Assembly (NCBI RefSeq): GCF_013155125.1
Contig: NZ_CP053564.1
Coordinates: 2,177,501-2,241,500 of the forward strand
From: Pseudonocardia broussonetiae
GTDB taxonomy: Bacteria > Actinomycetota > Actinomycetes > Mycobacteriales > Pseudonocardiaceae
DNA length: 64,000 nucleotides
Direction: 5' to 3'
Numbering within the stretch: the first letter of the stretch is position 1; every line of letters starts with the position of its first letter. This document shows positions 50,237-63,661 of this stretch, piece by piece. The translations under genes and the position numbers were made by a program. The notes below the pieces were generated by a model, which saw nothing but the letters and a program-made list of their open reading frames with translations, was not told where the DNA came from and did no database searches.

Positions 50237-51808
50237 ATGCCCGTTCGCAGCCCGTTCCCGGACGTCGAGATCCCCGAGGTCCCGCTGTTCGACTTCCTGT
50301 TCTCCGACTTCGGCGGCCGCGACGCCGAGCCCGCGCTGATCGACGGGTCCTCCGGTGCGTCGATCTCCTTCGCCGAGCTGCGGGGGATGACCGAGCGGAT
50401 CGCGGCGGCCCTGGCCGAGCGCGGCATCGTCAAGGGCGACGTCGTCGGCATCTTCTCGCCCAACACGCCGTACTACGCGGCGGTGTTCCACGGCATCCTG
50501 CGCGCCAACGCGATCGTGACCAGCGCCAACTCCCTCTACAGCCCCGGCGAGCTCGCCCACCAGCTCAAGGACTCGGGCGCCAAGCTGCTGTTCACGGCGT
50601 CGCCGTTCCTGGAGCGCGCGGCCGCGGCCGTCGAGCAGGCGGGGCTGCCCGCCGACTCGATCATCGTGCTGGACGGTGCCGAGGGCTACGCGTCGCTGCG
50701 CGACCTGCTCGCGAGCACCGCCGAGGTGCCCGCGGCCGACGTCGTCCCGACCGACACCGCCGTGCTGCCCTACTCCTCGGGCACCACGGGCCTGGCCAAG
50801 GGCGTCATCCTCACGCACCGCAACCTCGTCGCGAACCTCGTGCAGATGGACGGGGTCATGAAGGTCGGCCCGGAGACGCGGATCCTCGCGGTCCTGCCGT
50901 TCTTCCACATCTACGGCATGACCGTGATGATGAACCACGGCCTGCACCGCAACGCCACCGTCATCACGATGCCGAAGTTCGACCTGCCGGAGTTCCTCCG
51001 GATCGTGTCGGAGTACAAGATCCAGCGGCTCTACATCGCCCCGCCGGTGGCGGTGGCGCTGGCCAAGCACCCGATGGTCGACCAGTACGACCTGTCGTGC
51101 GTCGACGTCATCTTCTCCGGCGCGGCCCCGCTCGACGCCGAGCTCGGCAACGCGATGGGCAAGCGGCTGGGCTGCACGGTCCTGCAGGGCTACGGGATGA
51201 CCGAGCTGTCGCCGGTGAGCCACGCGATGCCCGACGACCGCCCCGACCTCGACCTCAACTCCTCGGGCTTCGCGCTGCCCAACATCGAGTGCAAGCTCGT
51301 CGACCCGGAGACGGGCGAGGAGGTCGGCCCCGGCGGGCGCGGCGAGCTGTGGGTCAAGGGCCCGAACGTGATGGTCGGCTACCTCAACAACCCCGAGGCC
51401 ACCGCCGCCACCCTGGACGACGAGGGCTACCTGCACACCGGCGACGTCGCCGAGGTCACCGAGGAGGGCGTCTTCTCGATCGTCGACCGCGTCAAGGAGC
51501 TCATCAAGTACAAGGGCTACCAGGTGCCGCCGGCCGAGCTGGAGGCGCTGCTGCTCACCCACCCGAAGATCGCCGACTCGGCCGTCATCGGGGTGAAGGA
51601 CGCGGAGGGCGAGGAGGTGCCCAAGGCGTTCGTGGTGCTGCAGGACGGCGCCGAGCTCAGCGCCGACGAGGTCATGGCGTTCGTCGCCGAGCGCATCGCC
51701 CCGCACAAGAAGGTGCGGGTGGTGGAGTTCATCGACGTCATCCCGAAGTCGGCGTCCGGGAAGATCCTGCGCAAGGACCTCCGCGCTCGGGAAGCCGCCA
51801 ACGCCTGA
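50237..51808 (+). CDS. 4-coumarate-CoA ligase-like acyl-CoA synthetase, AICE integration target
   Basis: This 523-residue ANL ligase has PYSSGTTGLAKGVILTHRNL, GYGMTELSPVS, HTGDVAEVTEEGVFSIVDRVKELIKYKGYQVPPAELE and the catalytic Lys in SASGKILRKDL. It activates an aromatic or fatty acid to the CoA thioester. Its last 14 codons (from ATC 51764) lie on the element side of attL and are supplied by the integrated element. The original 3' end survives at 63504-63548 and would encode the same residues except Asn to Thr near the end. A hairpin after the stop is also duplicated. Confidence 0.9.
   Translation: MPVRSPFPDVEIPEVPLFDFLFSDFGGRDAEPALIDGSSGASISFAELRGMTERIAAALAERGIVKGDVVGIFSPNTPYYAAVFHGILRANAIVTSANSLYSPGELAHQLKDSGAKLLFTASPFLERAAAAVEQAGLPADSIIVLDGAEGYASLRDLLASTAEVPAADVVPTDTAVLPYSSGTTGLAKGVILTHRNLVANLVQMDGVMKVGPETRILAVLPFFHIYGMTVMMNHGLHRNATVITMPKFDLPEFLRIVSEYKIQRLYIAPPVAVALAKHPMVDQYDLSCVDVIFSGAAPLDAELGNAMGKRLGCTVLQGYGMTELSPVSHAMPDDRPDLDLNSSGFALPNIECKLVDPETGEEVGPGGRGELWVKGPNVMVGYLNNPEATAATLDDEGYLHTGDVAEVTEEGVFSIVDRVKELIKYKGYQVPPAELEALLLTHPKIADSAVIGVKDAEGEEVPKAFVVLQDGAELSADEVMAFVAERIAPHKKVRVVEFIDVIPKSASGKILRKDLRAREAANA
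51765..51780 (+). repeat. attL core
   Basis: TCCTGCGCAAGGACCT lies within the last codons of the 4CL-like gene and is identical to the sequence at 63505-63520. After the core the two flanks continue to encode the same residues (KDLRAREAA) with different codons, which is the pattern of attL against attR rather than of chance. The int gene ends 222 bp away. Confidence 0.85.
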
Positions 51809-51942
51809 GACGGCGGACCAGCCGGAACGGGGCTCTGACCAGCACGAACGCCCGACCACTCCCGCTTCCCCCTCTGTGAGGGACCGGCGGAGTGCCGGGT
51901 GATCTGGGGTCATCCACGGGACCGGTACGGAACGCGGAGATG

Positions 51943-51984
51943 CCCCGGCGTCCACAGTGGAATTGTCACCGTGGACCGCCGGGG
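51943..51984 (+). terminator. Element-side copy of the 4CL-gene terminator
   Basis: CCCCGGCGTCCACAGTG pairs with CACCGTGGACCGCCGGGG across a 7-base loop, with one bulge and one mismatch. The following CCTCTGCCG is shared with the copy at 63559-63600. It lies between the reconstituted stop codon and int on the other strand, and can stop both transcripts. Confidence 0.75.
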
Positions 51985-52002
51985 CCTCTGCCGTTCCCGC
52001 CC

Positions 52003-53397
52003 TCATCCGTCGAGCAGCGTCGTGATGCGGTCGTTGTAGGCCGAGCGCTGACCGTCCAGACACTTTGCGTAGACCGTCAACAGCACCTTGACGGAGTTCC
52101 CCGCGCGCTCGGCTACCTCGGTGGGCGGGACCCCCGCGGCCAACCAGCTCGACAGAGCGGCATGGCGGAGGTCGTACGGACGACGGGCGAGCGGGGACAC
52201 CTCCTGCGCCGGGCTGAGCCCGATCTGCCGGGCCTCCTCCCACACCCGGGAGTAGACCGAGCCCGGCACGTTCTCTCCCGACTCGACGCCGGAGAACAGC
52301 CGGCCGTCCCGCGTCGTCCCGAACTCCGCCAGGTGCGCGCGCAGGATCTCGACGAGCGTGGGCGGGATCGGCACCGGCCGGACCTCCTCCGCCGCGCGAC
52401 GCTTCAACGGACGCTCGTGGTGACGCTTCCCCCGCGGCGCGTAGTAGCCGGCGCTGACCTCCGAGCGCGATCCCGTGAGCACCAGCTCGCCCCAGCCCGA
52501 GGTGGGCAACGTGCAGTCCGCCTCCCGCAGCAACTGGACCTCGCCGGGCCGCAGACCGGCGTAGTAGATGCAGGCGAAGAACGCATGCAGCCGCCGACCA
52601 CGGTCCCGATCCTGGAGCCGCCGGCCCCTGACGTAGGTCACCGCTGCGAGCAGTTGGCGCGCCTGCGCCGGGTTGACCACCACGCGTGGGTCGACGATCT
52701 GCGGCCCGCTGTGGCGCACGACGTGGCGCCGACCGGTGAGCGGGTTGACGTCGATCCACCCCGACGACCGCGCGAACTCCACCGTGCGGTGCAGCACCGC
52801 CCGACGCTTGTCCCACGTCAGCGACGTCACCGAGCGCCCTGAGACGGTCTTGCCGAGCGCCGTCAGCAACTCCGAGGCCACGATGTCATCGCCCAGATCG
52901 GCGACTGGTCGAGATGCTCGGACCACCCAGCTCGCTGCCGCGGTCTGCGCCGCAGTCAACGGCTCACCACGACGAGGCGGCGGGAGCAGGCGCGTCGACA
53001 GCAGCCGCTGCAGAGCCGCCGGATCGGGCGCGTGATCGAGTTGCCGGACGAACAGCGGCACGATCGCGGCCATGCTCGTCACGACGCCCTTACGCGTGTT
53101 CGGAGGTGCGCCGCTGGCCCACAACCAGTCGACGTAGCTCGTCGCCACCTCCAGGAGCGTCCGCGCGTTCCGCTTGCGCGCGAGCGACACCGGGAGCCCG
53201 CTCTGCACCTCGAACGCCTCACCCGCCCGCTGAGCCCGTTGCAGGTCCGACCGGAACGACTCCGCCAGCGCCTTGGTCGCGTACCACTCCGAGTGCTCCC
53301 GCCCCTCGGTCTTCCATCGGACGCCGTACCGACGGCGCGAGGCGTGCTTGACGACGTTCCACACGCTCACGCGGTAGGTCGTCGGCCGCTCGCTCAT
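52003..53397 (-). CDS. int: AICE tyrosine-recombinase integrase
   Basis: This 464-residue integrase has an N-terminal arm-binding region with basic Arg/Lys residues and a core-binding helical domain (about residues 80-215). The catalytic domain has Arg283 (YYAGLRPGE), Arg411 (YDLRHAALSSWL) and Tyr443 (VYAKCLDGQ). Tyr408 and Asn434 stand where His is usual (YDLR and AGNS), which from memory is frequent in AICE integrases. ATG 53397 overlaps the xis stop. Site choice is unusual: a protein gene rather than a tRNA gene. Confidence 0.92.
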   Translation of the reverse strand: MSERPTTYRVSVWNVVKHASRRRYGVRWKTEGREHSEWYATKALAESFRSDLQRAQRAGEAFEVQSGLPVSLARKRNARTLLEVATSYVDWLWASGAPPNTRKGVVTSMAAIVPLFVRQLDHAPDPAALQRLLSTRLLPPPRRGEPLTAAQTAAASWVVRASRPVADLGDDIVASELLTALGKTVSGRSVTSLTWDKRRAVLHRTVEFARSSGWIDVNPLTGRRHVVRHSGPQIVDPRVVVNPAQARQLLAAVTYVRGRRLQDRDRGRRLHAFFACIYYAGLRPGEVQLLREADCTLPTSGWGELVLTGSRSEVSAGYYAPRGKRHHERPLKRRAAEEVRPVPIPPTLVEILRAHLAEFGTTRDGRLFSGVESGENVPGSVYSRVWEEARQIGLSPAQEVSPLARRPYDLRHAALSSWLAAGVPPTEVAERAGNSVKVLLTVYAKCLDGQRSAYNDRITTLLDG

Positions 53398-53603
53398 GCC
53401 GCCCGTCCCGGCGCGTCCCGCAGGCCCTCCAGCCAGTCCAGCAGGTCACCCCGCCGCACCCGGAGGTGCCCGTTGGGCAGACGGAAGCAGGGCGGAGCGG
53501 TCCGCTTCTCCCGCCACTCGTAGAAGGTGTCCCGAGAGACGCCCCCAAGCAGTTCGAGCACCTGCCGGACACTCAGCAGCTCGTCACGGTCGATCGCCTT
53601 CAC
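53394..53603 (-). CDS. xis: Excisionase / MerR-like DNA-binding protein
   Basis: This 69-residue protein starts at GTG 53603, within the rep stop (GTGA). The winged helix-turn-helix LLSVRQVLELLGGVSRDTFYEWREKRTAPP is followed by RLPNGHLRVRRGDLLDWLEGL, the AlpA/Xis type. It would bend attachment-site DNA and drive excision by Int. Coupled to int by ATGA. Confidence 0.9.
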   Translation of the reverse strand: MKAIDRDELLSVRQVLELLGGVSRDTFYEWREKRTAPPCFRLPNGHLRVRRGDLLDWLEGLRDAPGRAA

Positions 53604-55249
53604 GCCGCTACCTCCTCGGTTGCCGAACGCTCGTCGGGCAGGTCGCCGGCCAGGGCTTGGGCGGCGGTGTAGTCGGCTTTCCAGCGTTGTCGCTGGGAGA
53701 TCGCGTGTAGCAGCAGCGCCGGTCTTGTCGGGACGTCCGGGTCGCCGGGCCGGGTCTTCTCCCACTCGAACGGCCCGTCATCCACTGCGTAGCCGGGCCG
53801 GACTCCGGCGGTGTGGAGGAGTTGCCGAACGAACGCGGCCCGTTCGGCCTGGTGGTCGTCGAGGGTCTTGCCCGACCACTTGCGCGAAACGAGGACGCGG
53901 CGGCCGCCGATGCCCAGGTGTTCGGGGCGGTGGGCCTTGCCCTTGCACTGCCCGGGCACGGCGGTGTGCCGGACCTTCTTGGGCTGGACCCCGTAGAGGA
54001 GCCAGATCGGGCACTGCGGGGAGCACGGGGTGCGGTCGAGTTCGGCGACGAGACGGCGGCGGTGCTCGCGTTGCCGAGCGGTCGGGTCCTCGACGAGCCC
54101 GGCGGCCTGGGAGACGGACTTGGTGAGGTACTTGGTCAGGTAGCCGATGTGGCGCCCGGCCTCCTCGGTGCCGCCGAGGATGCCCTTGACGTGCACCTGG
54201 GCGCCGAACGTGACCGTGTGCCCGGGAGTCAGCAGCACCTCCGGGTCGGTGGCCTCCTCCCAGGTGGGGAGTTCGGCGCCGGTGTCGGGGTCGACGAAGC
54301 CGTGGGCGTCGTCGTTCCACACGGGCGCGTGGTCGCCGCAGTAGACCTGCTGGTCGTGCTCGGGCCACCACACCTGGTGGTAGGTCGCGGCGGTGATCGC
54401 CCGCAGCTCCGCGCGCGGGATGGTGCCCCTGATCGCGGCGTGGAAGTGCGGCGCCCCGCGCTTCTGGGGCTCGATGGTCCCGAAGTACTGGACCTCCCAC
54501 CCGACGCAGCGGCGGGTGTTCTGCCAGAACCGATCGACAATCTTGGGGAAGTGGATCGCGTCGCGGGCAGCGCGGCGGTAGTCGTAGCCGTCCGGGTCGA
54601 GCGCAGCTCCGTCCCCGTCCACCCGCCCGTAGGAGTCCAGGGTGAGGGTGAGGAAGGTGGAGGGCCGGTACTTGCCGCCGAACACCTGCCCGAGCGTGCG
54701 CTTCTCCACCGGCCGCCGGGGCAGGTTCGGAGCGTCCTGCCGTCGCCGGGTCGAGCGCTTCACCGTCGGCCGCTCGGGCGGGTCGAGCGGTTCCAACCGG
54801 CCCGTCACGCCGGCCCGGCGCAGCTCTTCGTCGAGGACGGCGACGGTGTCGCGGATGGCCTCGCGCTCGGATTCCTCGTCCTCCTCCTGGTAGACCGCGT
54901 GCAGGTCCGCCCGGACCGCCAGCAGCTCCTTCTGGGTCTCGGTCGGTGTGGGTCGGGTGGGGATGGGTTCGTGCTCGAGGTGCCAGCCCTCCCGGCACTG
55001 GGTCATCCGGGTGCGGCGGCACTTGTCCGCGCACGGCTTGCAGACGTCATCCCGCCGGGATCCGCAGGGAACGGGGACGACGTCGACCCGCCCGGTGGTC
55101 AGGTCGAGCCGGCGCATGGCCAGCGGGCGGACGCAGACGCCGTGGTCTTCGGCGAGCTGCTGGGCGACGTCCCCGGACAGGGACATCAGGGCCTTCTGCG
55201 CGCGGGTGAGCTGGTCGTAGTCGACGGTCACCGGTTCGGTGGTGGTCAT
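53600..55249 (-). CDS. repSA: RepSA-like replication initiator
   Basis: This 549-residue protein has a Cys cluster (CKPCADKC and nearby C, residues 62-85) that may bind zinc. Rolling-circle motifs follow: FLTLTLDSYG (199-208), the HUH-type PHFHAAI (267-273), and GYLTKYLTKS, whose tyrosines may nick DNA. It resembles RepSA of pSAM2, which starts rolling-circle replication at a double-strand origin in or near its own gene. It overlaps xis and the tra gene by 4 bp each. Confidence 0.88.
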   Translation of the reverse strand: MTTTEPVTVDYDQLTRAQKALMSLSGDVAQQLAEDHGVCVRPLAMRRLDLTTGRVDVVPVPCGSRRDDVCKPCADKCRRTRMTQCREGWHLEHEPIPTRPTPTETQKELLAVRADLHAVYQEEDEESEREAIRDTVAVLDEELRRAGVTGRLEPLDPPERPTVKRSTRRRQDAPNLPRRPVEKRTLGQVFGGKYRPSTFLTLTLDSYGRVDGDGAALDPDGYDYRRAARDAIHFPKIVDRFWQNTRRCVGWEVQYFGTIEPQKRGAPHFHAAIRGTIPRAELRAITAATYHQVWWPEHDQQVYCGDHAPVWNDDAHGFVDPDTGAELPTWEEATDPEVLLTPGHTVTFGAQVHVKGILGGTEEAGRHIGYLTKYLTKSVSQAAGLVEDPTARQREHRRRLVAELDRTPCSPQCPIWLLYGVQPKKVRHTAVPGQCKGKAHRPEHLGIGGRRVLVSRKWSGKTLDDHQAERAAFVRQLLHTAGVRPGYAVDDGPFEWEKTRPGDPDVPTRPALLLHAISQRQRWKADYTAAQALAGDLPDERSATEEVAA

Positions 55250-56838
55250 GCCTGGCCTCCGATCGGTTGCAGCGCCGGAACGGGTGCCGCGAACGGCCCG
55301 CCCTGCACGGGGATGGCCAGCGGGGGCGAGGCGGGGGAGTGGACGAAGTGCTCCAGGTCCTTGATGACGTGGTCGGGCACCCAGGCCGAGCGGACCCGGA
55401 GGGGTTCGCGGATGCCTTCGCCGAACAGGTAGCCGATCCCGGGTTCGTGTTCGCCGATGCGGTTGGCCCAGGCGCCGCGGTCGTAGGCGTGCTCGCCGAG
55501 CACCATCGATACGTGGGACTTGCTCGCCACGCGCAGGCAGATCCGGCGGGGGAACAGCTCGCGGACCGGGACGGTGTCCTTGGTCGGTTCCTGGACGTAG
55601 CCGCGGACGGAGTACCCGAGTGCGCGGCCCTGGGTGGTGAGCAGTGCGACGCGTTCGACGATGGCTTCGCGGGTCTTGCGGTCGCCGACGTAGCGGACCA
55701 GGGCGCCGATCTCGTCGAACTCGACCAGCTCCAACGGAAACTCCCGACTGATCGGGACGACCCGCTTGTGGGTGGAGAACTGCTCCTTGCGGGCGGTCAT
55801 GCCGTCGATCAGGTCGTCCAGCAGCGCCAACGCGTCCTTCGACGTGGAGGCGTAGCGGTGGAATACCCGCCGGCCGTAGGCCAGCTCCATGCCCTTGGGG
55901 TCGATGCCGGAGACGCGGACCAGGCCGTCGCGGATGGCCGGGGCCAGGGAGATGATCGGAGCCCAGGTGAAGGAGTTTTTGCCCGCGCCGGTGGAGCCGG
56001 CGACGAGGGTGTGGCTGCCTTCGATGGCCTGGAACCAGTCGGTGCCGTACTCGCTGCGCCCGGACCACACGCGGCGGAAGTCGACGTGTTCGCCGCGGAC
56101 CCAGGTCAGGTTCCCGAGGTGTTGGCACGGGACGACCGAGGCGAGGCGGTCGTGGCGCTGGAAGTCGATCGACACCAGGTCCGGTCCGAGCTCGCGAACC
56201 TGGCAGCGAGCGACCCCGCGGGCGACGGCCAGTGAGCGGGCGGCGAGGTCGAAGTCCTCCGGGGTCTGCCCGGGCACGAGCCGTACCCGCACTTCGTCCC
56301 AGGACCCGCCCGAGCGGACCCCGACCACGCGGGGTGTGCGGCCCGCGCCGGGCTTCACCTTCGGCTGGACCGCGGACCGCCGGAACGGGTTGACCTGGAC
56401 GTGCACGCCGGGATCGCGGTCGGCGACGGTCAGCCCGCAGGCTCGCAGCCAGCCGGGCATCTTCCGGGCGTAGAGCACCCACCGCAGCCACCAGGCCCGC
56501 AGGTGCCGACCGGCCCAAGGCTCGAAAGAGTCGCGGCCGAGCTGCCACCACCCGAGCAAGCCGAGCCCGATGACCGCGGCGGTGATGGCGAGCGAGGGCC
56601 AGCCCAGCAGGTAGCACCAGGCCGCTGCAACGGCGGTGCTGACACTGGTCCGCCAGTGCTTCACGACTTGGCGTCCTGCCCACAAGACGCCCTTGACGAT
56701 CAGCCAGAGCGTCACGAACACGACGGCGATCGCGGCCAGGGCTTCCAGGAGCTGGGTCAACCAGCGCCCGACCTTGTGCAGCACCCACAGCCCACCCCCG
56801 GCCACGAGGGCGACCAGAACGATCTGCGCGGTACTCAT
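55246..56838 (-). CDS. FtsK/SpoIIIE-type DNA translocase (Tra)
   Basis: This 530-residue protein has three hydrophobic segments in the first 100 residues, then an FtsK-like motor. Walker A is GSTGAGKNS (residues 281-289, Asn in place of the usual Ser/Thr after Lys, then Ser). SGIDPKGMELAYG and Walker B LELVEFDEIGAL follow. It is the likely conjugative pump that moves double-stranded element DNA between mycelial cells. ATG 56838 abuts the preceding gene's stop in TGATG. Confidence 0.9.
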   Translation of the reverse strand: MSTAQIVLVALVAGGGLWVLHKVGRWLTQLLEALAAIAVVFVTLWLIVKGVLWAGRQVVKHWRTSVSTAVAAAWCYLLGWPSLAITAAVIGLGLLGWWQLGRDSFEPWAGRHLRAWWLRWVLYARKMPGWLRACGLTVADRDPGVHVQVNPFRRSAVQPKVKPGAGRTPRVVGVRSGGSWDEVRVRLVPGQTPEDFDLAARSLAVARGVARCQVRELGPDLVSIDFQRHDRLASVVPCQHLGNLTWVRGEHVDFRRVWSGRSEYGTDWFQAIEGSHTLVAGSTGAGKNSFTWAPIISLAPAIRDGLVRVSGIDPKGMELAYGRRVFHRYASTSKDALALLDDLIDGMTARKEQFSTHKRVVPISREFPLELVEFDEIGALVRYVGDRKTREAIVERVALLTTQGRALGYSVRGYVQEPTKDTVPVRELFPRRICLRVASKSHVSMVLGEHAYDRGAWANRIGEHEPGIGYLFGEGIREPLRVRSAWVPDHVIKDLEHFVHSPASPPLAIPVQGGPFAAPVPALQPIGGQA

Positions 56839-57155
56839 CACGCCACCTCCCCAGCGACAGGGGCGGACCATCGCTGGTGCGCGGCCTGCCGGGTAACGCC
56901 GAGTCGGGCGGCGATCTCGCCCCAGGAGTAGCCGGCCTCTCGGAGCCCGGTCACGGCGTCGCTGATGGCGGCGTCAAGTTCCACGGAGAGGGCGGCGAGG
57001 TCGGGCAGAGCGTCCACGTCACCGGCAGCGATCCGACGGCCGGCGGCTCGGATGACCCGACGGCCGAACGCGGCGAACTCCGAGTTCTCCACCACCCGCG
57101 CCGTTCGTCCATTCGTCAAGGTGGCGTTAACGCGGGATCGGGTCCGGGCGCTCAC
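56838..57155 (-). CDS. Small helix-turn-helix protein of the AICE
   Basis: This 105-residue protein starts at GTG 57155. A C-terminal helix-turn-helix (SWGEIAARLGVTRQAAHQRW) follows an N-terminal DNA-inert-looking helical part. It probably regulates the transfer operon. It is coupled to whiB by GTGA and to the tra gene by TGATG. Confidence 0.75.
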   Translation of the reverse strand: MSARTRSRVNATLTNGRTARVVENSEFAAFGRRVIRAAGRRIAAGDVDALPDLAALSVELDAAISDAVTGLREAGYSWGEIAARLGVTRQAAHQRWSAPVAGEVA

Positions 57156-57457
57156 GCAGCCACCGCCCCAGTCGGCCCGATCAGTGGACGCTGCCCGAGG
57201 AACAGGGCCGTCCGCTCGTCCGGGGTGAGGCCGGCTGTGATGCCCCAGCGCCGGGCCGGGCTCTCGGACGCCATGACGTCGGCGAGGCACGGCACCCGGA
57301 CCGGGCACCCCGTGCAGATCCGGCGGGCCGCGGTGACGGCCGGTCCTGTGGGGGTCAGGTCGAGCGGGTAGAAGGTCTCCGGGTCGGCGGCGGCGCAGGC
57401 CGCGAGCTGGCGCCAGTCCCATCCGGCGAGGTCGGCGAGGTGGACCGGGGCGGTCAT
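57152..57457 (-). CDS. WhiB-family transcriptional regulator of the AICE
   Basis: This 101-residue protein has four Cys for a 4Fe-4S cluster: the first in LAACAAADPETFYP and three in RRICTGCPVRVPCL. The WhiB turn appears as RWGITAGLTPDER rather than the usual GVWGG form. It may sense redox state or oxygen and control element genes. Element-borne WhiB proteins are common in actinobacteria. Confidence 0.88.
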   Translation of the reverse strand: MTAPVHLADLAGWDWRQLAACAAADPETFYPLDLTPTGPAVTAARRICTGCPVRVPCLADVMASESPARRWGITAGLTPDERTALFLGQRPLIGPTGAVAA

Positions 57458-57861
57458 GCCGTCACCCCCAGCTCGGCCCAGTTGGACAGCGCTCCGGCGG
57501 CGTCGGAGGTTGGCCGGTGGTCGGTGCGGGCGCGCCAGTCCGCGGCGGTGTCGCGCCAGAACCGGGACCGTTCCTGCTGCCTGTGCCCGGCCGCCAGGGC
57601 CGCCTTGCCGTGTAGCCGGTCGAATCCGGCGCGGTAGGTCCAGCGGGCCAGGACCCGCCACCACGCCGCCCGCCGGGCACAGACCCGCGCCAGGGCGAGC
57701 GCGCGGTGGGCGTGCTCGACGTTGCTGGTGTGCGGCATCCGGGCCGCGAGGTCGTAGGCGTCGTCCAGCTCGGCCAGGGCGGTGACGATGTGGGCCGGGA
57801 TGTCCGGGACGACTCGCGTCGCCGCCGAGTCAGCGGGTGGGGCGATCAGGGGTGTGCGCAT
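57454..57861 (-). CDS. Hypothetical AICE protein
   Basis: This 135-residue basic, Ala/Arg-rich protein starts at ATG 57861 and is predicted helical (HRALALARVCARRAAWWRVLARW). No family recognised. It heads the seven-gene minus-strand unit and is coupled to whiB by ATGA. Confidence 0.65.
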   Translation of the reverse strand: MRTPLIAPPADSAATRVVPDIPAHIVTALAELDDAYDLAARMPHTSNVEHAHRALALARVCARRAAWWRVLARWTYRAGFDRLHGKAALAAGHRQQERSRFWRDTAADWRARTDHRPTSDAAGALSNWAELGVTA

Positions 57862-57922
57862 CTAAGGTCGGTGTCCTTCCGGGACTCGGTTCCTTGCCAG
57901 GGGTTGGGCTCGTGGAAGGTCA

Positions 57923-57957
57923 GGAGGGGAGCCCGGTTGCAGCCGCGGCTCCCCTCC
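57923..57957 (-). terminator. Terminator after pra
   Basis: A perfect 11-bp stem (GGAGGGGAGCC and complement) with a 13-base loop follows the pra stop and separates it from the tra-int unit. Confidence 0.65.
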
Positions 57958-57967
57958 GCCATGTCGC

Positions 57968-58402
57968 TCAGGCGGCCTCCCCGGTGTGCGCGCGGGGCGT
58001 CGGCTTACCCGCGCCGGCCTGTTGCGGGGCGCGCATCGCCGAGGCCCGAAAGCTGTAGGCGATACGGGTCCGGCCGCCGTTCTCGTTGAGATAGGGCGTG
58101 ACGGTGAGCCCGTCGAACTCCACCGGACGGAACGGCATCCCCGCGATCGCCTCCGGCGGGACCGGCTGATGCGGGGCGGCGATCTTCACGGTGACCGTCT
58201 TGGCGTCCTTACGGGCGTCCGGGTCGGGGTCGAGCACCGACACCGACCACACCAACTGGCCGGTCTCCTTGTCGGTGGCCTGCACCGGCCGCTCTCGGGT
58301 CGAGCGCTCGAAGTCCCGGACCGGCTCGACCTCCCCGACGACGTAGGCGCCGTGCGGGAACACGTCCCCGTGGTTGACCTTGAACTTGCCGTTGATCGCC
58401 AT
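57968..58402 (-). CDS. pra: Pra-like replication/integration/excision activator
   Basis: This 144-residue protein begins AINGKFKVNHGDVFPHGAYVVGEVEPVRDFERS and has PFRPVEFDGLTVTPYLNENGGRTRIAYSFRA. It matches, from memory, the proteins annotated as plasmid replication, integration and excision activators in AICEs (Pra of pSAM2). It would switch on rep, xis and int. Its promoter carries a perfect palindrome that also occurs, in part, before korSA, as known for pSAM2 KorSA. Confidence 0.75.
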   Translation of the reverse strand: MAINGKFKVNHGDVFPHGAYVVGEVEPVRDFERSTRERPVQATDKETGQLVWSVSVLDPDPDARKDAKTVTVKIAAPHQPVPPEAIAGMPFRPVEFDGLTVTPYLNENGGRTRIAYSFRASAMRAPQQAGAGKPTPRAHTGEAA

Positions 58403-58431
58403 TGCGCCTCCTGAGTGTGCGGCAGGCTGTC

Positions 58432-58469
58432 TGGCCTATGCCACTTACCACTATAAGTGGCATAGGCCA
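58432..58469. promoter_or_regulatory. KorSA operator in the pra promoter
   Basis: TGGCCTATGCCACTTA and its exact complement are separated by CCACTA, 30 bp upstream of the pra start. CCTATGCCACTTACCACTATAAG within it matches 20 of 23 positions of a site before korSA. In pSAM2, KorSA represses both pra and korSA through such a shared site. Confidence 0.75.
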
Positions 58470-58510
58470 CTGAGGCAATGGGGGTGTGGATGACTTGCCC
58501 ACGGCCGGGG

Positions 58511-59257
58511 CTACCGGGCCAGCGGGTACTCCTGGCGGAAGGCCCAATGATCGGGTGGGTAGGTGGCCTCGTCGAACTGGATCGGCTGGTCCGAGCTGCC
58601 GTAGGCGGTCAGTCGGTAGACCAGGACGGCGGCCGGGCGGGGGAGTTCGAGCAGTCGACGTTCCTCGGCCGTTGCCAGGCGCGCCGCAACCTGGTCCCGG
58701 GCGTACTCGGAGTCGCGGCCGGTCACCTCGGCGATGTACTTGCCCGTCCCGCCCAGCAGCCGTTCCGGGTGCAGCAGCCGCGGGGCCGGCCCGGCGAGCT
58801 GAGGGGCGAACCACGATGTCGACAGCTCGATCGGTCGGCCGCCCTCACCGCGCAGCAGACGAGTGCGGCGGATGACCTCGCTGCCGGTCGGGAGCTGTAG
58901 CGCCTCGACGACGTGATCGGCGCCGGTCACGATGTCGGTGGCGAGGAACTCGACGGACTCGGCCGCCCCGTACATCGTGCCCAGGTCGCGGCCCCGCTCG
59001 TAGCGCTCACGCGCCCGGGGAGCGGCCTGACTCGCCCGCACGTAGGTGCCCGACCCCTGCCGGGACTCCACGAGACCCTGAACGCGCAGCGACTCCAGTG
59101 CGCGGGCCGCGGTCGGGCGGGCCACGCTCCACCGCACCGCCAGCTCACGCTCCGACGGGACCTCATCACCGGGGTTGAGGTCTCCGCGCACGATCTGGTC
59201 GCGGATGTGGCCGGCTATCTGCAGGTACTTCGGGAGCACCTTCTGGATCTCGGGCAT
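58511..59257 (-). CDS. korSA: KorSA-type GntR/UTRA repressor
   Basis: This 248-residue protein has the GntR winged helix (YLQIAGHIRDQIVRGDLNPGDEVPSERELAVRWSVARPTAARALESLRVQGLV) at residues 11-65. A UTRA effector domain follows (IRRTRLL, STSWF, VYRLTAYGSSDQPIQFDEATYPPDHWAF). It should keep pra off and the element integrated. Sites in its own promoter suggest autoregulation. Confidence 0.87.
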   Translation of the reverse strand: MPEIQKVLPKYLQIAGHIRDQIVRGDLNPGDEVPSERELAVRWSVARPTAARALESLRVQGLVESRQGSGTYVRASQAAPRARERYERGRDLGTMYGAAESVEFLATDIVTGADHVVEALQLPTGSEVIRRTRLLRGEGGRPIELSTSWFAPQLAGPAPRLLHPERLLGGTGKYIAEVTGRDSEYARDQVAARLATAEERRLLELPRPAAVLVYRLTAYGSSDQPIQFDEATYPPDHWAFRQEYPLAR

Positions 59258-59284
59258 CTGCCCCTCGCTGGGCTCATCAACTGT

Positions 59285-59307
59285 CCTATGCCACTTGCCA
59301 CTGTAGG
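59285..59307. promoter_or_regulatory. KorSA operator between korSA and the DUF1152 gene
   Basis: CCTATGCCACTTGCCACTGTAGG lies in the 88-bp divergent gap and differs at three positions from the pra site. It can repress korSA and, from the other side, the DUF1152 gene, so this cargo may be induced when the element is. Confidence 0.65.
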
Positions 59308-59345
59308 CGCCTATCGTTCACTGGAGTTCACGTAGGGTCGCGCAG

Positions 59346-60437
59346 GTGGGGACCCTCACTGTGGCCGCCGGAGGCGGTGGCGACGCCATCACCGGCGCCG
59401 CGATTGCCGGCCGCCACGCCACAGCCGGCCCGCCGATCGTCATGACCTACTCATGGGACCGACTTATGATCGACCCACTCCCCGGACCACGCACCGCCGC
59501 CGACTTCACCGGACTGCGCAAGCTCGCTCCGAACGTGCTCGAAGTGGTCGCCACGACCACGCCCATCGGCGGCGCCGGCTCGTCGCTCCCGAGGCTCGCA
59601 GCCGAGCTGCCCGCGCGGCTCCTGCTGCTCGATCCGAGCGGGGGAGCGGTCGGCATGGCCCACCAGATCGTGGCAGCGGTCGAGTACTTCCAGCTCGACG
59701 ACGTAGACCTGATCGACGTTGGAGGCGATGCCCTCACCAACGGCGCGGACCTGGGGCTGCGCAGCCCGCTCGCGGATCAGCTGGCACTCGCCGCATGCGT
59801 TCGGACTGGAATCCCGACCCGGCTACTCATCGCCGGTGCCGGTCTCGACGGCGAGCTGCCGGCCGCCGTGATTGCGGAGCGCCTGACCCAGCTCGACGCG
59901 CAGGACCTTCCCGCGCTTGACGCCGAATCCATCGCCGCCGTCCGCCATGTGTTCGGGTGGCACCCGTCCGAGGCATCTGGGCTGCTTGCCGCGGCCGCCG
60001 CGGGACGCCGCGGAAGTGTCGAAGTCCGTGACGCAGGCGATCACGTCGAGATGACAGACGCCACGACGCTTCTGTCCGCGGTCGACGCGAAGCGAGCCGC
60101 CGAAGTGACCCCCGCTGCGCAGATACTCGACGCCAAATCGCTTGATGACGCAGAGCGGTCAATCCGCGAAGTCACCGGAATCTCCGAGATTGCGTACGAG
60201 ACCCAAAAGGCTAAACGGCTGGCCACCGGTCATGCTCACGAGCCCACCGAAGCCGATCTACCCGTCGTTGATCGCTTCGCCGACAGCGCCCGCCTGCACG
60301 GAGCAGAGTTCATCAGTGTCCGCCGCCTGTCGGAACTCGTCGGCGCAACGACACTTTCTACGTTTACCGCCCTAACTGATCTGCTCGCGACCAATCGTTC
60401 TAAACGGTATGAACCGTCGTTGTATCGAACCACGTAG
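59346..60437 (+). CDS. DUF1152 family protein (AICE cargo)
   Basis: This 363-residue protein starts at GTG 59346. It matches DUF1152: LTVAAGGGGDAITGAAIA (N-terminal glycine loop), SWDRLMIDPLPGPRT, LLLDPSGGAVG, DVGGDALTNGADLGLRSPLADQLALAA, AGAGLDGEL and LDAKSLDDAERSIREVTG. The last 60 residues extend beyond the pattern I know. Function is undescribed; the glycine loops suggest nucleotide or sugar-phosphate binding. It is divergent from korSA and 55 bp before an AT-richer membrane-protein gene. Confidence 0.82.
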   Translation: MGTLTVAAGGGGDAITGAAIAGRHATAGPPIVMTYSWDRLMIDPLPGPRTAADFTGLRKLAPNVLEVVATTTPIGGAGSSLPRLAAELPARLLLLDPSGGAVGMAHQIVAAVEYFQLDDVDLIDVGGDALTNGADLGLRSPLADQLALAACVRTGIPTRLLIAGAGLDGELPAAVIAERLTQLDAQDLPALDAESIAAVRHVFGWHPSEASGLLAAAAAGRRGSVEVRDAGDHVEMTDATTLLSAVDAKRAAEVTPAAQILDAKSLDDAERSIREVTGISEIAYETQKAKRLATGHAHEPTEADLPVVDRFADSARLHGAEFISVRRLSELVGATTLSTFTALTDLLATNRSKRYEPSLYRTT

Positions 60438-60492
60438 GCGGTCGCTCTCACGGGTCCAGTAGAGTAGGTCCCTTCAAAGGAGTAGGGGACTG

Positions 60493-61173
60493 ATGCTACA
60501 GCCGACGCGGGTAACTGTTTCACGAAAGCTGCGGCCTAAGAGATTGACAGGCGGGGAGCTTTCGGAGCTGATCGCTCTCGCTATTGACGGCGCAAGCCGC
60601 GTTATCACGTCAGCCGAGTGGCGAGGTGGAGAACAGACACGCTCTACAGATGTGACCAAGCTAGTGGAGGTCCACCGTCCGCACGACCTGATCAAAATGG
60701 ACTTGCTGGTGTTCTACCCCGACGACTCCGCTCTTGATTTCGAATTGATCGGAACCTTTGATCAGTCGGCAGAAGCCAGCACTGGAACGGCCCTTGCTCG
60801 CGCACATCAGATTGAAAGCCGGTACTCCGCGATTCCGACGCGCCGTGCGGCGCTACTGGTTGCCCGGGCACTGCTCTGGGCCAGCCTCCTTGTAGGAGTC
60901 CTAGTCTGTTGGAGCTTGCTCTCCCGGCTGATTGATTTAAATTCGCTCCCATTCCCGGTGTCGGTATCCATCATGGGCATATTTTTGGCTGTGGTTGCAG
61001 TAGTTGCTTGGCTAACAGCAAGCAGGGTATGGGAGCTTGCTCCAAGCAGAACATCCGTTATTCCTATCGATTTGTCATGGTTTCGCAATCCAGCAATTAT
61101 GGTGCCTCTTTTTGGGGCATCAGCAACAGCGGTCACGGCAACGGTTGCAGCCATTACGCTCCTCACGCGCTAA
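60493..61173 (+). CDS. Three-TM protein downstream of DUF1152 (AICE cargo)
   Basis: This 226-residue protein starts at ATG 60493 after AAGGAG. A soluble N-terminal domain of about 115 residues (ELSELIALAIDGASRVITSAEWRGGEQ, KMDLLVFYPDDSALDFELIGTFD) precedes helices at about 117-142, 150-172 and 197-222. Codon use is visibly AT-richer than the rest of the window, pointing to separate origin. No family recognised. The cytosolic domain plus membrane bundle resembles membrane effectors of defence systems, but that is inference. Confidence 0.72.
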   Translation: MLQPTRVTVSRKLRPKRLTGGELSELIALAIDGASRVITSAEWRGGEQTRSTDVTKLVEVHRPHDLIKMDLLVFYPDDSALDFELIGTFDQSAEASTGTALARAHQIESRYSAIPTRRAALLVARALLWASLLVGVLVCWSLLSRLIDLNSLPFPVSVSIMGIFLAVVAVVAWLTASRVWELAPSRTSVIPIDLSWFRNPAIMVPLFGASATAVTATVAAITLLTR

Positions 61174-61487
61174 CGCTCGCACCCAACGTCGCGGTGTGTG
61201 GCGTCGACGAGCTTTAACGCTCGCCGCCACGCTGCGGGTCGTTCGACCGTGGTAGCCCCTGCGCTCCGGGCGACGCCTCCCCTGGCCACCCACCGCGCTT
61301 CGGCGGGCGTCACCAGCAGTGCTGCCGAATCTGTCTCTTTAGGATCAAGCGCGCCGCCTCCGGCGGCGCGGGGCCGGCCACGCCGGCCCCGGCACTCGCT
61401 CACTACACCTCCGGCCCGTTCGCGGCGCCGTGGCCGCCTACCCGGCCCCACTGCCAGAAGACGAGCGAGCGTGCTCCCAGGACTGAT
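61174..61487. other. Non-coding region with two adjacent GC hairpins
   Basis: No credible gene in 314 bp between convergent cargo genes. At 61351-61390 two hairpins stand side by side: GCGCCGCC-tcc-GGCGGCGC and GGGGCCGG-ccacg-CCGGCCCC. They follow TCTCTTTAGGATCAA. They may be back-to-back terminators or an origin/transfer-related structure. Confidence 0.55.
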
Positions 61488-61793
61488 TCAGCGACGAACG
61501 ACCCGACGAAGCTCATCCAGCGACGGCGCGCCGGACACCCCGTCCGCAGACCGATAGACCCGACACGACAGGTTCGCCGCCGGCGTCGCCTGCTCCGCGA
61601 ACGGATCCACCCCATCGATCAGGACCGTGGGCGACCCAGCGAACGCAGCCGCCGATCCGATCGAGTCCTCAGTGAGCGTGCGGACCATGATCAAGGTGTC
61701 GGAGCGCCCGGTATCATCGAGCGCCCGACGCAGACGTTCGTAGGCCGGCGCTTCGTTCGGGCAGTCCGACACAACCAGCAGCTCGACCCGCAT
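61488..61793 (-). CDS. Thioredoxin-like small protein (AICE cargo)
   Basis: This 101-residue protein has a thioredoxin-like fold with a single-Cys motif in VVSDCPNEAPAYERLRRAL. FAGSPTVLIDGVDPFAE and NLSCRVYRSADGVSGAPS complete the pattern. From memory such proteins often lie near mercury or thiol-stress genes in actinobacteria. Probably redox or thiol chemistry; no merA or merB is present. Confidence 0.75.
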   Translation of the reverse strand: MRVELLVVSDCPNEAPAYERLRRALDDTGRSDTLIMVRTLTEDSIGSAAAFAGSPTVLIDGVDPFAEQATPAANLSCRVYRSADGVSGAPSLDELRRVVRR

Positions 61794-61843
61794 AGCCGCA
61801 AGTGTGCCTGGCTCAGCCCCCCGAGGGGCAGCCGGTGAACGCT

Positions 61844-62329
61844 TTAGTCGTTGCGGCCCATCCGGATCAGATTGCCGCTCGGATCCTTCACGTTGAACTC
61901 GACCATCCCCCATGGCTCGATCACGACGTCGCTCACCGGCAGGCCCTGCTCCTTCCACTGCCGATTCCACTCGACGGGATCAGCGACGTGCACGTAGCAG
62001 GCTGCGGCGTTGCGCTCCGGGTCCAGATCCGCCCGCAGATCCAGGTGCAGGATCTCGGCCTCCCCGTGCATGACGAAGGCGTACTCGGGGCTGTACTCAT
62101 CGACGCGCAGCCCGGCCCGAGTCCAGAACTCGCGAGCGGCGGCCATGTCGTGCACAGCAAAGATTGGAGTGATCGCAGGACGGGCGACGACGCGGCCGGC
62201 CATGTTGTGGAGGCAGCTACCGCACACGGCGATCTCGGGGTGCAGTCCCAACCTCGAGACGTCTTCCGCAGGCCGGGGTTCGCCGCAGCAACCGCATGCC
62301 ACGGTGGTCGGGCCCACTTCGTCGGTCAT
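61844..62329 (-). CDS. VOC/glyoxalase-family protein with N-terminal zinc ribbon (AICE cargo)
   Basis: This 161-residue protein starts at ATG 62329. CGCCGEP and CGSC near residues 11-38 look like a treble-clef or zinc ribbon. The rest is a VOC domain of bleomycin-resistance type: TPIFAVHDMAAAREFWTRAGLRVDEYSPEYAFVMHGEAEILHLD and WGMVEFNVKDPSGNLIRMGR. Could bind or modify an antibiotic, or be an enzyme; the substrate is unknown. Confidence 0.8.
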   Translation of the reverse strand: MTDEVGPTTVACGCCGEPRPAEDVSRLGLHPEIAVCGSCLHNMAGRVVARPAITPIFAVHDMAAAREFWTRAGLRVDEYSPEYAFVMHGEAEILHLDLRADLDPERNAAACYVHVADPVEWNRQWKEQGLPVSDVVIEPWGMVEFNVKDPSGNLIRMGRND

Positions 62330-62425
62330 GGCGCCCCCTCGGCCTCGCCGTGAGCGTAGCGGGAGCACCTCGGCGGGCAGGCTGACTTCACAGACGAGCC
62401 GCGCGGCACAGCTCCACGAGACTCG

Positions 62426-62707
62426 TCAGTCGTCGGACGCGTGGACCCTGCGCCACCGCCGGCTCGCCGAGCGCTCTTCGCGTACGAACTCCTCGGCCCG
62501 CGCTGCCGCCCGCCGCAGATGATCAGCCCGAGTCGGATCGGGATGGGCATCGGCTCGCTCGCGCAGGAGCTTGGCTAAGCGCTCGGAAGTGCGGGCCACC
62601 TCGTCGGCAAGCCGAGCGACATCGCCGGCGAGCTCCTGGGATGTGCGCCGAACCTCACTGGACGAGGTCACCAGCTCGGGACCCCCACTGAGGCCACGAG
62701 TAGTCAC
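62426..62707 (-). CDS. Small coiled-coil protein coupled to RsbW-like ATPase
   Basis: This 93-residue protein starts at GTG 62707, overlapping the ATPase stop (GTGA). Heptad-like SEVRRTSQELAGDVARLADEVARTSERLAKLLRE predicts one long coiled coil with an Arg/Glu-rich end. No family recognised. Coupling suggests it works with the ATPase. Confidence 0.62.
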   Translation of the reverse strand: MTTRGLSGGPELVTSSSEVRRTSQELAGDVARLADEVARTSERLAKLLRERADAHPDPTRADHLRRAAARAEEFVREERSASRRWRRVHASDD

Positions 62708-63093
62708 GGTGCCTCCCCGGATCTCGCCTGAACCTCTGCCCAGACCGTCTTCCCTCCCGGTAAGACGACGTAGCCCCAGTTGCGACTCAGTGCGGCCACC
62801 AGTCGCAACCCGCAGGCCGGTTCATGCTCCGACATGGACAGTCTGAGCCGGGGAATGTCGGGTGAGAAGTCGATGACGCGGATCACCGCGACCTCGCCGT
62901 CATGCCCGACGTGGACCTCGCCCGGCGTGCCCGCATGCTCGATGACGTTGGTGACCAGCTCGTTCAGGACGAACATCACGTCATCCCGGTCTCTCGGAGC
63001 GACGCCCCACTGGTTCAGCGCTGAGGTGAGGTGTCTTCGGATCCCCGCGGGCGCGGTGATCTGAGGTTCGAACCGCCACGACGCTTCAGCCAC
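62704..63093 (-). CDS. RsbW/SpoIIAB-like histidine-kinase-type ATPase
   Basis: This 129-residue HATPase_c protein starts at GTG 63093. The N box is FVLNELVTNVIEHAGTPGEV. The G1 region is weak (VIDFSPDIPRLR), and the glycine loop is ACGLRLVAALSRNWGYVVLPGGKTVWAEV. Such single-domain ATPases bind sigma factors or their antagonists in streptomycetes. A target is not evident. Confidence 0.85.
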   Translation of the reverse strand: MAEASWRFEPQITAPAGIRRHLTSALNQWGVAPRDRDDVMFVLNELVTNVIEHAGTPGEVHVGHDGEVAVIRVIDFSPDIPRLRLSMSEHEPACGLRLVAALSRNWGYVVLPGGKTVWAEVQARSGEAP

Positions 63094-63504
63094 CTGTACC
63101 CGGGCTCCCTGCGTCGGCTGTTGGTCGATAGCTCATCCATGCGTGCCCGGTGAGAATCGCATCAAACTCTGGCCTGCAGATCATGCGGGCTCCGCCCGCG
63201 CCCGGCACCGCTCGGAGATCGGGGGAGTGCGGCGGGGTGGTGATCTCGCCGCGGCACGCCGAGACGGCTACCGGGTCGAGGGGCGGGGCACAAGGCGGGA
63301 AGACGTGCCTTGCACCCCGCCCCTCGACCCGGAAGGGTTCCACCCGCGCCGCGACGAGATCACCACCAGCATCCGGCGTGCAGGAAGGTCGTAGAGCGTT
63401 TCCCGCACCGTCTACGGGACCGGCACGTAACGACCACCGGCAGCGACATGATCAAAATCAGCGCTGTCGCAGGTCGAGGGCCGTGTGTCGCCGAGGCCCG
63501 CGGT
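63094..63504. other. Non-coding region of the AICE next to attR
   Basis: 411 bp without a supported gene. It contains a long inverted repeat (63236-63367), a small hairpin (GCGGGC-tcc-GCCCGC at about 63184-63198), and about 135 bp before attR where arm-type Int sites would be expected but cannot be identified by eye. Confidence 0.6.
63236..63367. repeat. 132-bp long inverted repeat
   Basis: Outer arms 63236-63255 and 63348-63367 match over 20 bp with one mismatch (GGTGGTGATCTCG core). Inner arms 63271-63288 and 63315-63332 are perfect over 18 bp. The two unpaired stretches between them are both 15 bp, and the centre pairs again through CAAGGC/GCCTTG. The structure can fold into one long hairpin or cruciform. 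Confidence 0.85.
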
Positions 63505-63548
63505 TCCTGCGCAAGGACCTGCGGGCGCGGGAGGCGGCCACCGCCTGA
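63504..63548 (+). pseudogene. Displaced original 3' end of the 4CL-like gene at attR
   Basis: The frame reads FLRKDLRAREAATA then TGA, matching the C-terminus of the gene at 50237-51808 (ILRKDLRAREAANA). The codons differ from the attL side (for example CTG/CTC, GCG/GCT, GAG/GAA). The host terminator follows at once, so this is the chromosomal original cut off by integration. Confidence 0.85.
63505..63520 (+). repeat. attR core
   Basis: TCCTGCGCAAGGACCT is identical to attL at 51765-51780. It marks the far end of the element; the next base onward is host gene end and terminator. Confidence 0.85.
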
Positions 63549-63558
63549 GGCGGACCGG

Positions 63559-63600
63559 CCCCGGCGTCCACGGTGGAACTGCCACCGTGGCCCGCCGGGG
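63559..63600 (+). terminator. Original terminator of the 4CL-like gene
   Basis: CCCCGGCGTCCACGGTG pairs with CACCGTGGCCCGCCGGGG around a 7-base loop. It lies 10 bp after the TGA of the displaced gene end and is the better-paired partner of the copy at 51943-51984. Confidence 0.75.
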
Positions 63601-63661
63601 CCTCTGCCGCTCCGTCCCGGCAGCACCCGCGCGACGTTCGACGGGTCGCGGCGCGCACCGG

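Follow-up and report, generated by a model that had tools for sequence, protein, structure and literature searches.

An actinomycete integrative and conjugative element at the catalytic-motif end of an acyl-CoA ligase gene in Pseudonocardia broussonetiae, and the probable target of its integrase clade

The 64-kb stretch of the 7.29-Mb Pseudonocardia broussonetiae genome analysed here (genome G000, contig C1, positions 2177501-2241500; hereafter the window) contains an 11,740-bp actinomycete integrative and conjugative element (AICE), with Int, Xis, RepSA, FtsK/TraB and GntR modules, which is bounded by an exact 16-bp core and inserted in the end of an acyl-CoA ligase gene. Very probably, this element belongs to a family whose integrase clade targets the DNA encoding the A10 motif of such ligases, and whose attP supplies a replacement end for the interrupted open reading frame (ORF). 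The boundaries, the restored ORFs, the geometry of the arm sites and the association between clade and target are evident from the sequences themselves. The element combines a tyrosine integrase, RepSA and an FtsK/SpoIIIE transfer protein with att-flanked chromosomal integration, and is counted as an AICE because the Int/RepSA/FtsK set is the one by which AICEs are recognized in the passages of Ghinet et al. (2011; PMC3218068) drawn on here. The features that define the insertion are as follows.

50237..51764, + strand: host-encoded acyl-CoA ligase body, 4-coumarate-CoA ligase (4CL)-like, ending with base one of the codon that follows the presumed catalytic lysine (PF00501, E 2.8e-89; PF13193, E 3.6e-19)
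51765..51780, + strand: attL core, 16 bp, identical to the attR core (only two exact copies in the genome)
51781..51808, + strand: element-borne ligase ORF end (RAREAANA, stop); the protein tail recurs in G023, G001 and two Actinomycetospora elements
51816..51850, + strand: two arm-1-like repeats, GACCAGCNNGAACG, with look-alikes in tRNA-targeting relatives
51916..51933, + strand: left arm-2 site, ACGGGACCGGTACGGAAC, a direct repeat with an 11-bp period, +151 from the core (pattern match)
51942..51985, no strand assigned: element-side hairpin, with arm-2 on one side and the int stop on the other
52003..53397, - strand: integrase of tyrosine recombinase type (PHROG integrase, E 1.4e-20)
53394..53765, - strand (listed ORF; real start probably near 53600): Xis-like HTH_17 protein (PF12728, E 1.5e-9; PHROG excisionase, E 3.4e-7)
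53600..55249, - strand: RepSA replication initiator (PF20199, E 4.9e-99 over 53762-55186; start inferred from the ORF)
55246..56871, - strand: FtsK/SpoIIIE (TraB-like) transfer protein (PF01580, E 3.9e-10)
63414..63431, + strand: right arm-2 site, ACGGGACCGGCACGTAAC, at -91 from the attR core (pattern match with one mismatch)
63505..63520, + strand: attR core, 16 bp (exact repeat)
63521..63548, + strand: displaced host ligase ORF end (RAREAATA, stop), collinear with the unoccupied G052 and G049 loci
63557..63602, no strand assigned: host-side hairpin (repeat comparison and folding)

The 16 bp of the direct repeat TCCTGCGCAAGGACCT are identical at 51765-51780 and 63505-63520, inside a 49-nt stretch that is 86% identical, and the two att cores are its only exact copies genome-wide. 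At up to two mismatches the core is matched at 45 places in the genome, against 41 for a reversed-pattern control; the other 43 near-matches are therefore at chance level. No tRNA was found in the 64-kb window, and the site is the ligase ORF rather than the tRNA 3' end that is usual, but not defining, for AICEs. The closest solved relative of the ligase is 4-coumarate-CoA ligase 2 (5bsw). Alignment to this structure places the start of the core at the codon following the lysine of SGK, which we take to be the catalytic lysine of the A10 motif. The first-pass annotation had proposed an AICE in a protein gene with a 16-bp core in the ligase end, and the exact core, with only two copies in the genome, and the AICE modules bear this out.

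In P. broussonetiae and its sister P. oceani (G023) the attL tails agree while the attR tails differ, which indicates that the att side adjoining the ligase body carries the element tail; the earlier claim that the element supplies the ligase C-terminus is thereby upheld. The attL tails of these two genomes, of G001 and of Actinomycetospora straminea and A. lemnae all encode RAREAANA, and the codon differences between the P. broussonetiae and Actinomycetospora tails are synonymous. The attR host tails, by comparison, differ in four mapped elements (AATA, AAQA, NAPA and TANA). The uniform element tail fits selection on it as protein, in what is a small sample. In P. ammonioxydans (G006) the attL and attR tails are identical, unlike those of the other elements. 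The assignment of attR to the host side fits the collinearity of this end with two unoccupied loci, those of G052 (74% over 143 bp) and G049 (63% over 447 bp). Within the window, 14 restored codons with different synonymous choices had been described. Five synonymous differences are indeed present, together with one replacement (N/T), but all of these follow the codons CTG CGC AAG GAC, which are identical, and the first of the 14 tail residues (I/F) lies outside the core. Codon differences between tails, and the look-alike arm-1 motifs, were judged by eye.

The arm-2 pattern is an 18-bp direct repeat with an 11-bp period, ACGGRAC-N4-RCGGAAC. It occurs at +150/151 and at -90 to -92 in all seven ligase elements that could be mapped two-sidedly, that is, with both element ends located; the left copy is at +163 in P. 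endophytica (G012), which has a longer tail. The right copies of P. broussonetiae, P. oceani and P. endophytica each have one mismatch. From this layout, the stretch between the ligase stop and int can be read as the P' arm.

Related elements occupy ligase genes elsewhere. In P. oceani, a 12,594-bp element at the same site resembles that of P. broussonetiae in its first 6.6 kb and last 2.2 kb, with the middle exchanged. The same ligase holds a 15,352-bp element with a 51-bp repeat in P. ammonioxydans, and elements of 13,321 and 13,523 bp with exact 22-bp cores in A. straminea and A. lemnae, respectively; G001 retains only Int fragments at this locus. A second ligase carries a 12,332-bp element in P. 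endophytica (repeat of 34 + 24 bp, with one synonymous mismatch between), and a third carries a 14,547-bp element with a 101-bp repeat in Pseudonocardia sp. ICBG1293 (G043, contig 49). Both of these ligase genes match PF00501 and PF13193. The start of the repeat falls on base two or three of the Ile/Phe codon that follows the lysine in six of the seven two-sided elements; in P. ammonioxydans it comes 5 bp earlier.

A scan of 390 family genomes, in which only the four best integrase candidates were scored per genome, gave 42 integrase matches at E 1e-112 or better, in 39 genomes. Targets were assigned from flanking ORFs, tRNAs and arm position: acyl-CoA ligase in 12 cases, a DDAH-like gene in eight, tRNA-Arg in eight and tRNA-Met in one, with 13 unassigned. 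All ten integrases at least 62% identical to that of P. broussonetiae, its own included, adjoin an acyl-CoA ligase 3' end, with three distinct ligases represented. The search for Int relatives with the same target that had been recommended was productive, and the earlier identification gains strength from a target that is apparently a property of the clade across three ligases. The accompanying suggestion that the element evolved with this one host gene does not hold, since the clade also uses two other ligases.

Relatives within the genus at 37-47% identity are mostly beside tRNA-Tyr, tRNA-Leu or tRNA-Arg; of the 25 loci concerned (L014-L038), 23 have a tRNA according to ARAGORN, that of L031 being further off. 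In a 61-row tree, for which 17 of these 25 loci were used, the ten ligase-site integrases form one clade (bootstrap 100, SH-aLRT 100). The enclosing 26-row group (100/98) comprises 13 ligase, eight DDAH-like and five unassigned rows and no tRNA rows. The 47 assigned rows need one change between tRNA and protein targets, and three changes among tRNA, ligase and DDAH; the single tRNA/protein change holds for the rows used only, because the tRNA-less loci L033 and L037 were left out.

Several observations weigh against so simple a picture. Three integrases outside the clade of ten, from Kutzneria sp. 744 (G068), G294 and G144, are also at a ligase end, so target and clade are not one-to-one. The integrases without an assigned target include the next closest after the ten (G270, 57-58%). 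The elements of P. broussonetiae and P. oceani probably descend from one ancestral insertion, and hence are not independent. The integrase itself matches PF00589 (Phage_integrase) only at E 0.16, which is under the Pfam cut-off, and a profile of the alignment of its relatives matched no solved structure at E 1e-3. With regard to the tree, a single origin of ligase targeting was not rejected for 12 rows (p-AU 0.39). With G144 counted as ligase, the three-state count is three changes, one above the least possible, which makes more than one origin likely; the ligase has probably been chosen as a target more than once.

We propose that, in AMP-forming acyl-CoA ligase genes, the tyrosine integrase recombines attP with the DNA for the catalytic A10 motif at the C-terminus. 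Integration would split the ligase ORF directly behind the catalytic lysine, and the replacement end in attP would yield a full-length ligase ORF with an element-encoded tail, the host end being displaced to attR. In this model Int would link the core to both arm sites, the 18-bp direct repeats near +151 and -91; excision would fall to Xis, rolling-circle replication to RepSA and transfer to the FtsK-like protein. Target specificity would reside in the integrase clade, whose members occupy three ligase genes. Mobility, in the sense of Int binding, excision and transfer, is what we infer, and activity of the restored ligase is likewise presumed.

The hairpin behind the ligase end is also present twice. 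The pair (51934-52002 and 63550-63618) is 86% alike over 69 nt, with CCTCTGCCG directly after both copies, and folding gave -42.8 kcal/mol for the element copy and -50.7 kcal/mol for the host-side copy (z -6.7 and -6.9, far better than shuffles). A 21-nt pattern has five matches in the genome at up to three mismatches, and only the window pair has none. The two hairpins share an origin. The first-pass annotation had described a near copy of the host hairpin and the sequence after it, and regarded this as a copied terminator. The pair is real; a copied terminator is one possible reading of it, and the element copy adjoins int. It starts at about +176, a few bases past arm-2, in P. broussonetiae, P. 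oceani, G001 and G003, and at +166 in G009; int follows next in the first three of these (an int fragment in G001). Because its neighbours are the arm repeat and the int stop, the element hairpin may serve to terminate int, and mimicry of the host terminator gains no support from it.

The host-side hairpin could be the scar of an older element of this family from which the arm region has been deleted, the copying having run from element to host. This has a fair claim to consideration while falling somewhat short of even chances. For the comparison, the orthologous ligase was found at 80% or more DNA identity in 48 of 62 genomes of the genus, and 46 loci were used (G015 and G038 were excluded). 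Arm-2 follows the core at a distance of 60-260 bp in ten of the 46 loci, of which G017 looks spurious, compared with 13 of 4573 control windows, which marks the locus as a hot spot. By eye, G061 and G022 show a similar hairpin preceded by all or part of an arm repeat, and GCGGACC(A/G)GCC is common to the attR flank and the element tail region. Against this, G049 and G052 have a related hairpin close behind the ligase stop without any arm match.

Those two arm-less loci favour the alternative that the element captured the end and terminator of this ligase and kept them for function and insulation, as do the similarity of the hairpins, without another mismatch-free copy in the genome, and the collinearity of the attR end with G052. 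Such capture is nevertheless unlikely, given that the element hairpin is right behind the arm repeat and adjoins int in three genomes. A like hairpin (at most five mismatches) within 400 bp of attR is present in P. broussonetiae and was found in neither P. oceani nor P. ammonioxydans, and eight of the 46 loci have one at up to four mismatches (11 at up to five). A widely dispersed terminator is disfavoured. A 20-nt hairpin pattern at up to two mismatches gave 212 matches in the 62 genus genomes against 103 for the reversed control, a few per genome, and among the matches listed, four of the five mismatch-free copies are at the ligase locus (two in P. broussonetiae, one each in G001 and P. oceani), with one elsewhere (G019). 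That the flanking repeat is an old segmental duplication instead of an integration scar is extremely improbable: nothing beyond the repeat itself speaks for it, and the integrase at one end, the AICE modules, the two-sided insertions in three ligases and the shared arm geometry all speak against it.

Unoccupied orthologous ligases, for which a search had been advised, exist in G018, G049 and G052. Between the ligase and the conserved downstream block there is as little as about 0.1 kb in G018, where the block lies some 121 bp after the core, and as much as more than 20 kb in P. broussonetiae, where attR and the block are separated by about 10 kb of other DNA. The isomerase gene next to attR had been taken to mark the host original. 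It was rejected as a host or ancestral marker: the flank directly after attR in P. oceani has neither the isomerase nor the hairpin, and aligns to P. broussonetiae about 1.1 kb further on.

Smaller units are also found at the main ligase locus. In G011 (L120, contig C3; positions 0-1323 counted from the ligase core), a 1,279-bp unit between two ligase cores contains one Methyltransf_11 ORF (PF08241, E 3.3e-20), with arms at +151 (one mismatch) and -91 (none) and a further arm-2 after the second core. No Int match was found in the G011 ligase locus, so that the unit, with att sites at both ends and no integrase between, corresponds to a cis-mobilizable element (CIME) or non-autonomous element. 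Its second tail resembles the ligase end of the unit-free G016 (86% over 88 bp). Degenerate core-plus-tail copies without an integrase are present in G008 at +1628 and +4197, and no good arm was found ahead of the second and third core copies there. In Pseudonocardia sp. ICBG1293 (contig 7), a degenerate second core-plus-tail lies at about +1740, again without an integrase and with a short-chain dehydrogenase ORF between; the right arm-2 is at -90, the second core is altered at its start, and a left arm-2 was not found.

It is possible, if on the doubtful side, that the clade reads conserved catalytic-motif DNA as a gene-family target, in the manner of related integrases at tRNA genes, and can therefore switch from one ligase paralogue to another. 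On the same tentative footing, the main ligase would be a cassette-like hot spot in which integrase-less one-gene units such as that of G011 are moved in trans by resident AICEs, and element tails may tune the ligase.

A segment of about 600 bp recurs near the ligase, in either orientation, in G001, G011, G016, G033, G034, G055 and G061; in G033 it encodes a RibD_C-family (dihydrofolate-reductase-like) protein. The exchanged middle of the elements at one site corresponds to about 58402-61322 of the window, and measures about 2.9 kb in P. broussonetiae against 3.8 kb in P. oceani.

The remaining genes of the element are as follows.

57152..57664, - strand: WhiB-like protein (PF02467, E 1.7e-13)
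58511..59257, - strand: GntR/UTRA regulator, KorSA-like by domain content only (PF00392, PF07702)
59346..60437, + strand: cargo, DUF1152 protein (PF06626, E 7.9e-66)
60493..61173, + strand: cargo, ORF without a Pfam or PHROG match, in the kilobase with the lowest GC among the 18 kb profiled
61844..62368, - strand: cargo, glyoxalase/VOC-fold protein (PF00903, E 5.8e-6)
62704..63093, - strand: HATPase_c_2 (anti-sigma-like) protein (PF13581, E 9.7e-10)

The GC minimum of the 18 kb profiled is 0.589, at 60000-60999. The NCBIfam plasmid_TraB match of the FtsK-like protein (E 5.5e-6) is far under the cut-off. Four records of a plasmid collection match Int at 39-45% identity. A phage origin of Int was considered and rejected: phage records contained no relative at E 1e-30, and IMG/VR none with the two patterns used.

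Outside the ligase genes, a DDAH-like gene (PF19420, E 2.1e-6) of Actinokineospora globicatena (L169) is occupied by an 11,707-bp element with a 16-bp core and with arm-2 at +160 and -90, one mismatch each. Integrases at L169, L183-L185, L187, L188, L191 and L207 are at the 3' end of a DDAH-like gene ending in SGGGPKCCTMELR or a similar sequence; the site is a conserved C-terminal stretch with cysteines, and two-sided mapping was successful for L169 only. At L172, in Amycolatopsis regifaucium, an Int of 45% identity is accompanied by a matching arm-2 and a 27-bp flanking repeat, the latter in DNA that appears to be non-coding and close to a stretch, TTAGCACTC, which we presume to be CIRCE-like.

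Replacement of the end of a protein gene by an element-borne end is known from phages at icd and from ICESt1/3 at fda, the latter with CIMEs. These belong to other hosts and integrase families, with one known target gene each. The passages of Ghinet et al. (2011; PMC3218068) drawn on here place the great majority of tyrosine-integrase AICEs in tRNA 3' ends, the pSLS subfamily being the exception. The pSAM2-type AICEs described there share Int, RepSA, an FtsK/SpoIIIE Tra protein, GntR regulators and integration at a gene 3' end with the present element, but use tRNA sites and not ligase coding DNA. For Streptomyces, Choufa et al. (2022; PMC9513070) list 36 tRNA, 14 protein-gene and one intergenic sites, with AICE03 in rlmN. 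Protein-gene sites, integrase exchange that changes the target, accretion and decayed elements are common to both data sets, whereas no ligase is among the sites described in the portion of that account considered here. Tommasini et al. (PMC10111431), who also name icd as a target, describe in the corresponding portion a HE-PICI integrase clade that repeatedly targets phage late genes. The clade-wide target and a tandem doubled attP motif are similar, but HE-PICIs disrupt these genes without restoring them, whereas the ligase elements supply the gene end. SV1 likewise has a putative 4CL gene as target in an actinomycete; in the relevant part of PMC4068962, in contrast, a serine integrase interrupts the gene with no compensating fragment. 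No AICE in an acyl-CoA ligase was found in the literature searched, in the parts covered; the supplementary site tables of AICE surveys lay outside its scope, and such an element may be listed there. What is new is that a whole integrase clade apparently uses the catalytic-motif DNA of ligases, in three different genes.

These elements suggest how an AICE integrase lineage related to tRNA-targeting ones can adopt protein genes. The new targets encode active-site residues and for that reason are likely to remain constant, with each element carrying its own copy of the displaced end. The natural integrase-target pairs (three ligases, one DDAH-like gene and several tRNAs) could be used for mapping the determinants of target choice, and the elements are possible integration vectors for Pseudonocardia, Actinomycetospora and Kutzneria. 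They would also provide a natural set of ligases with swapped ends past the catalytic lysine.

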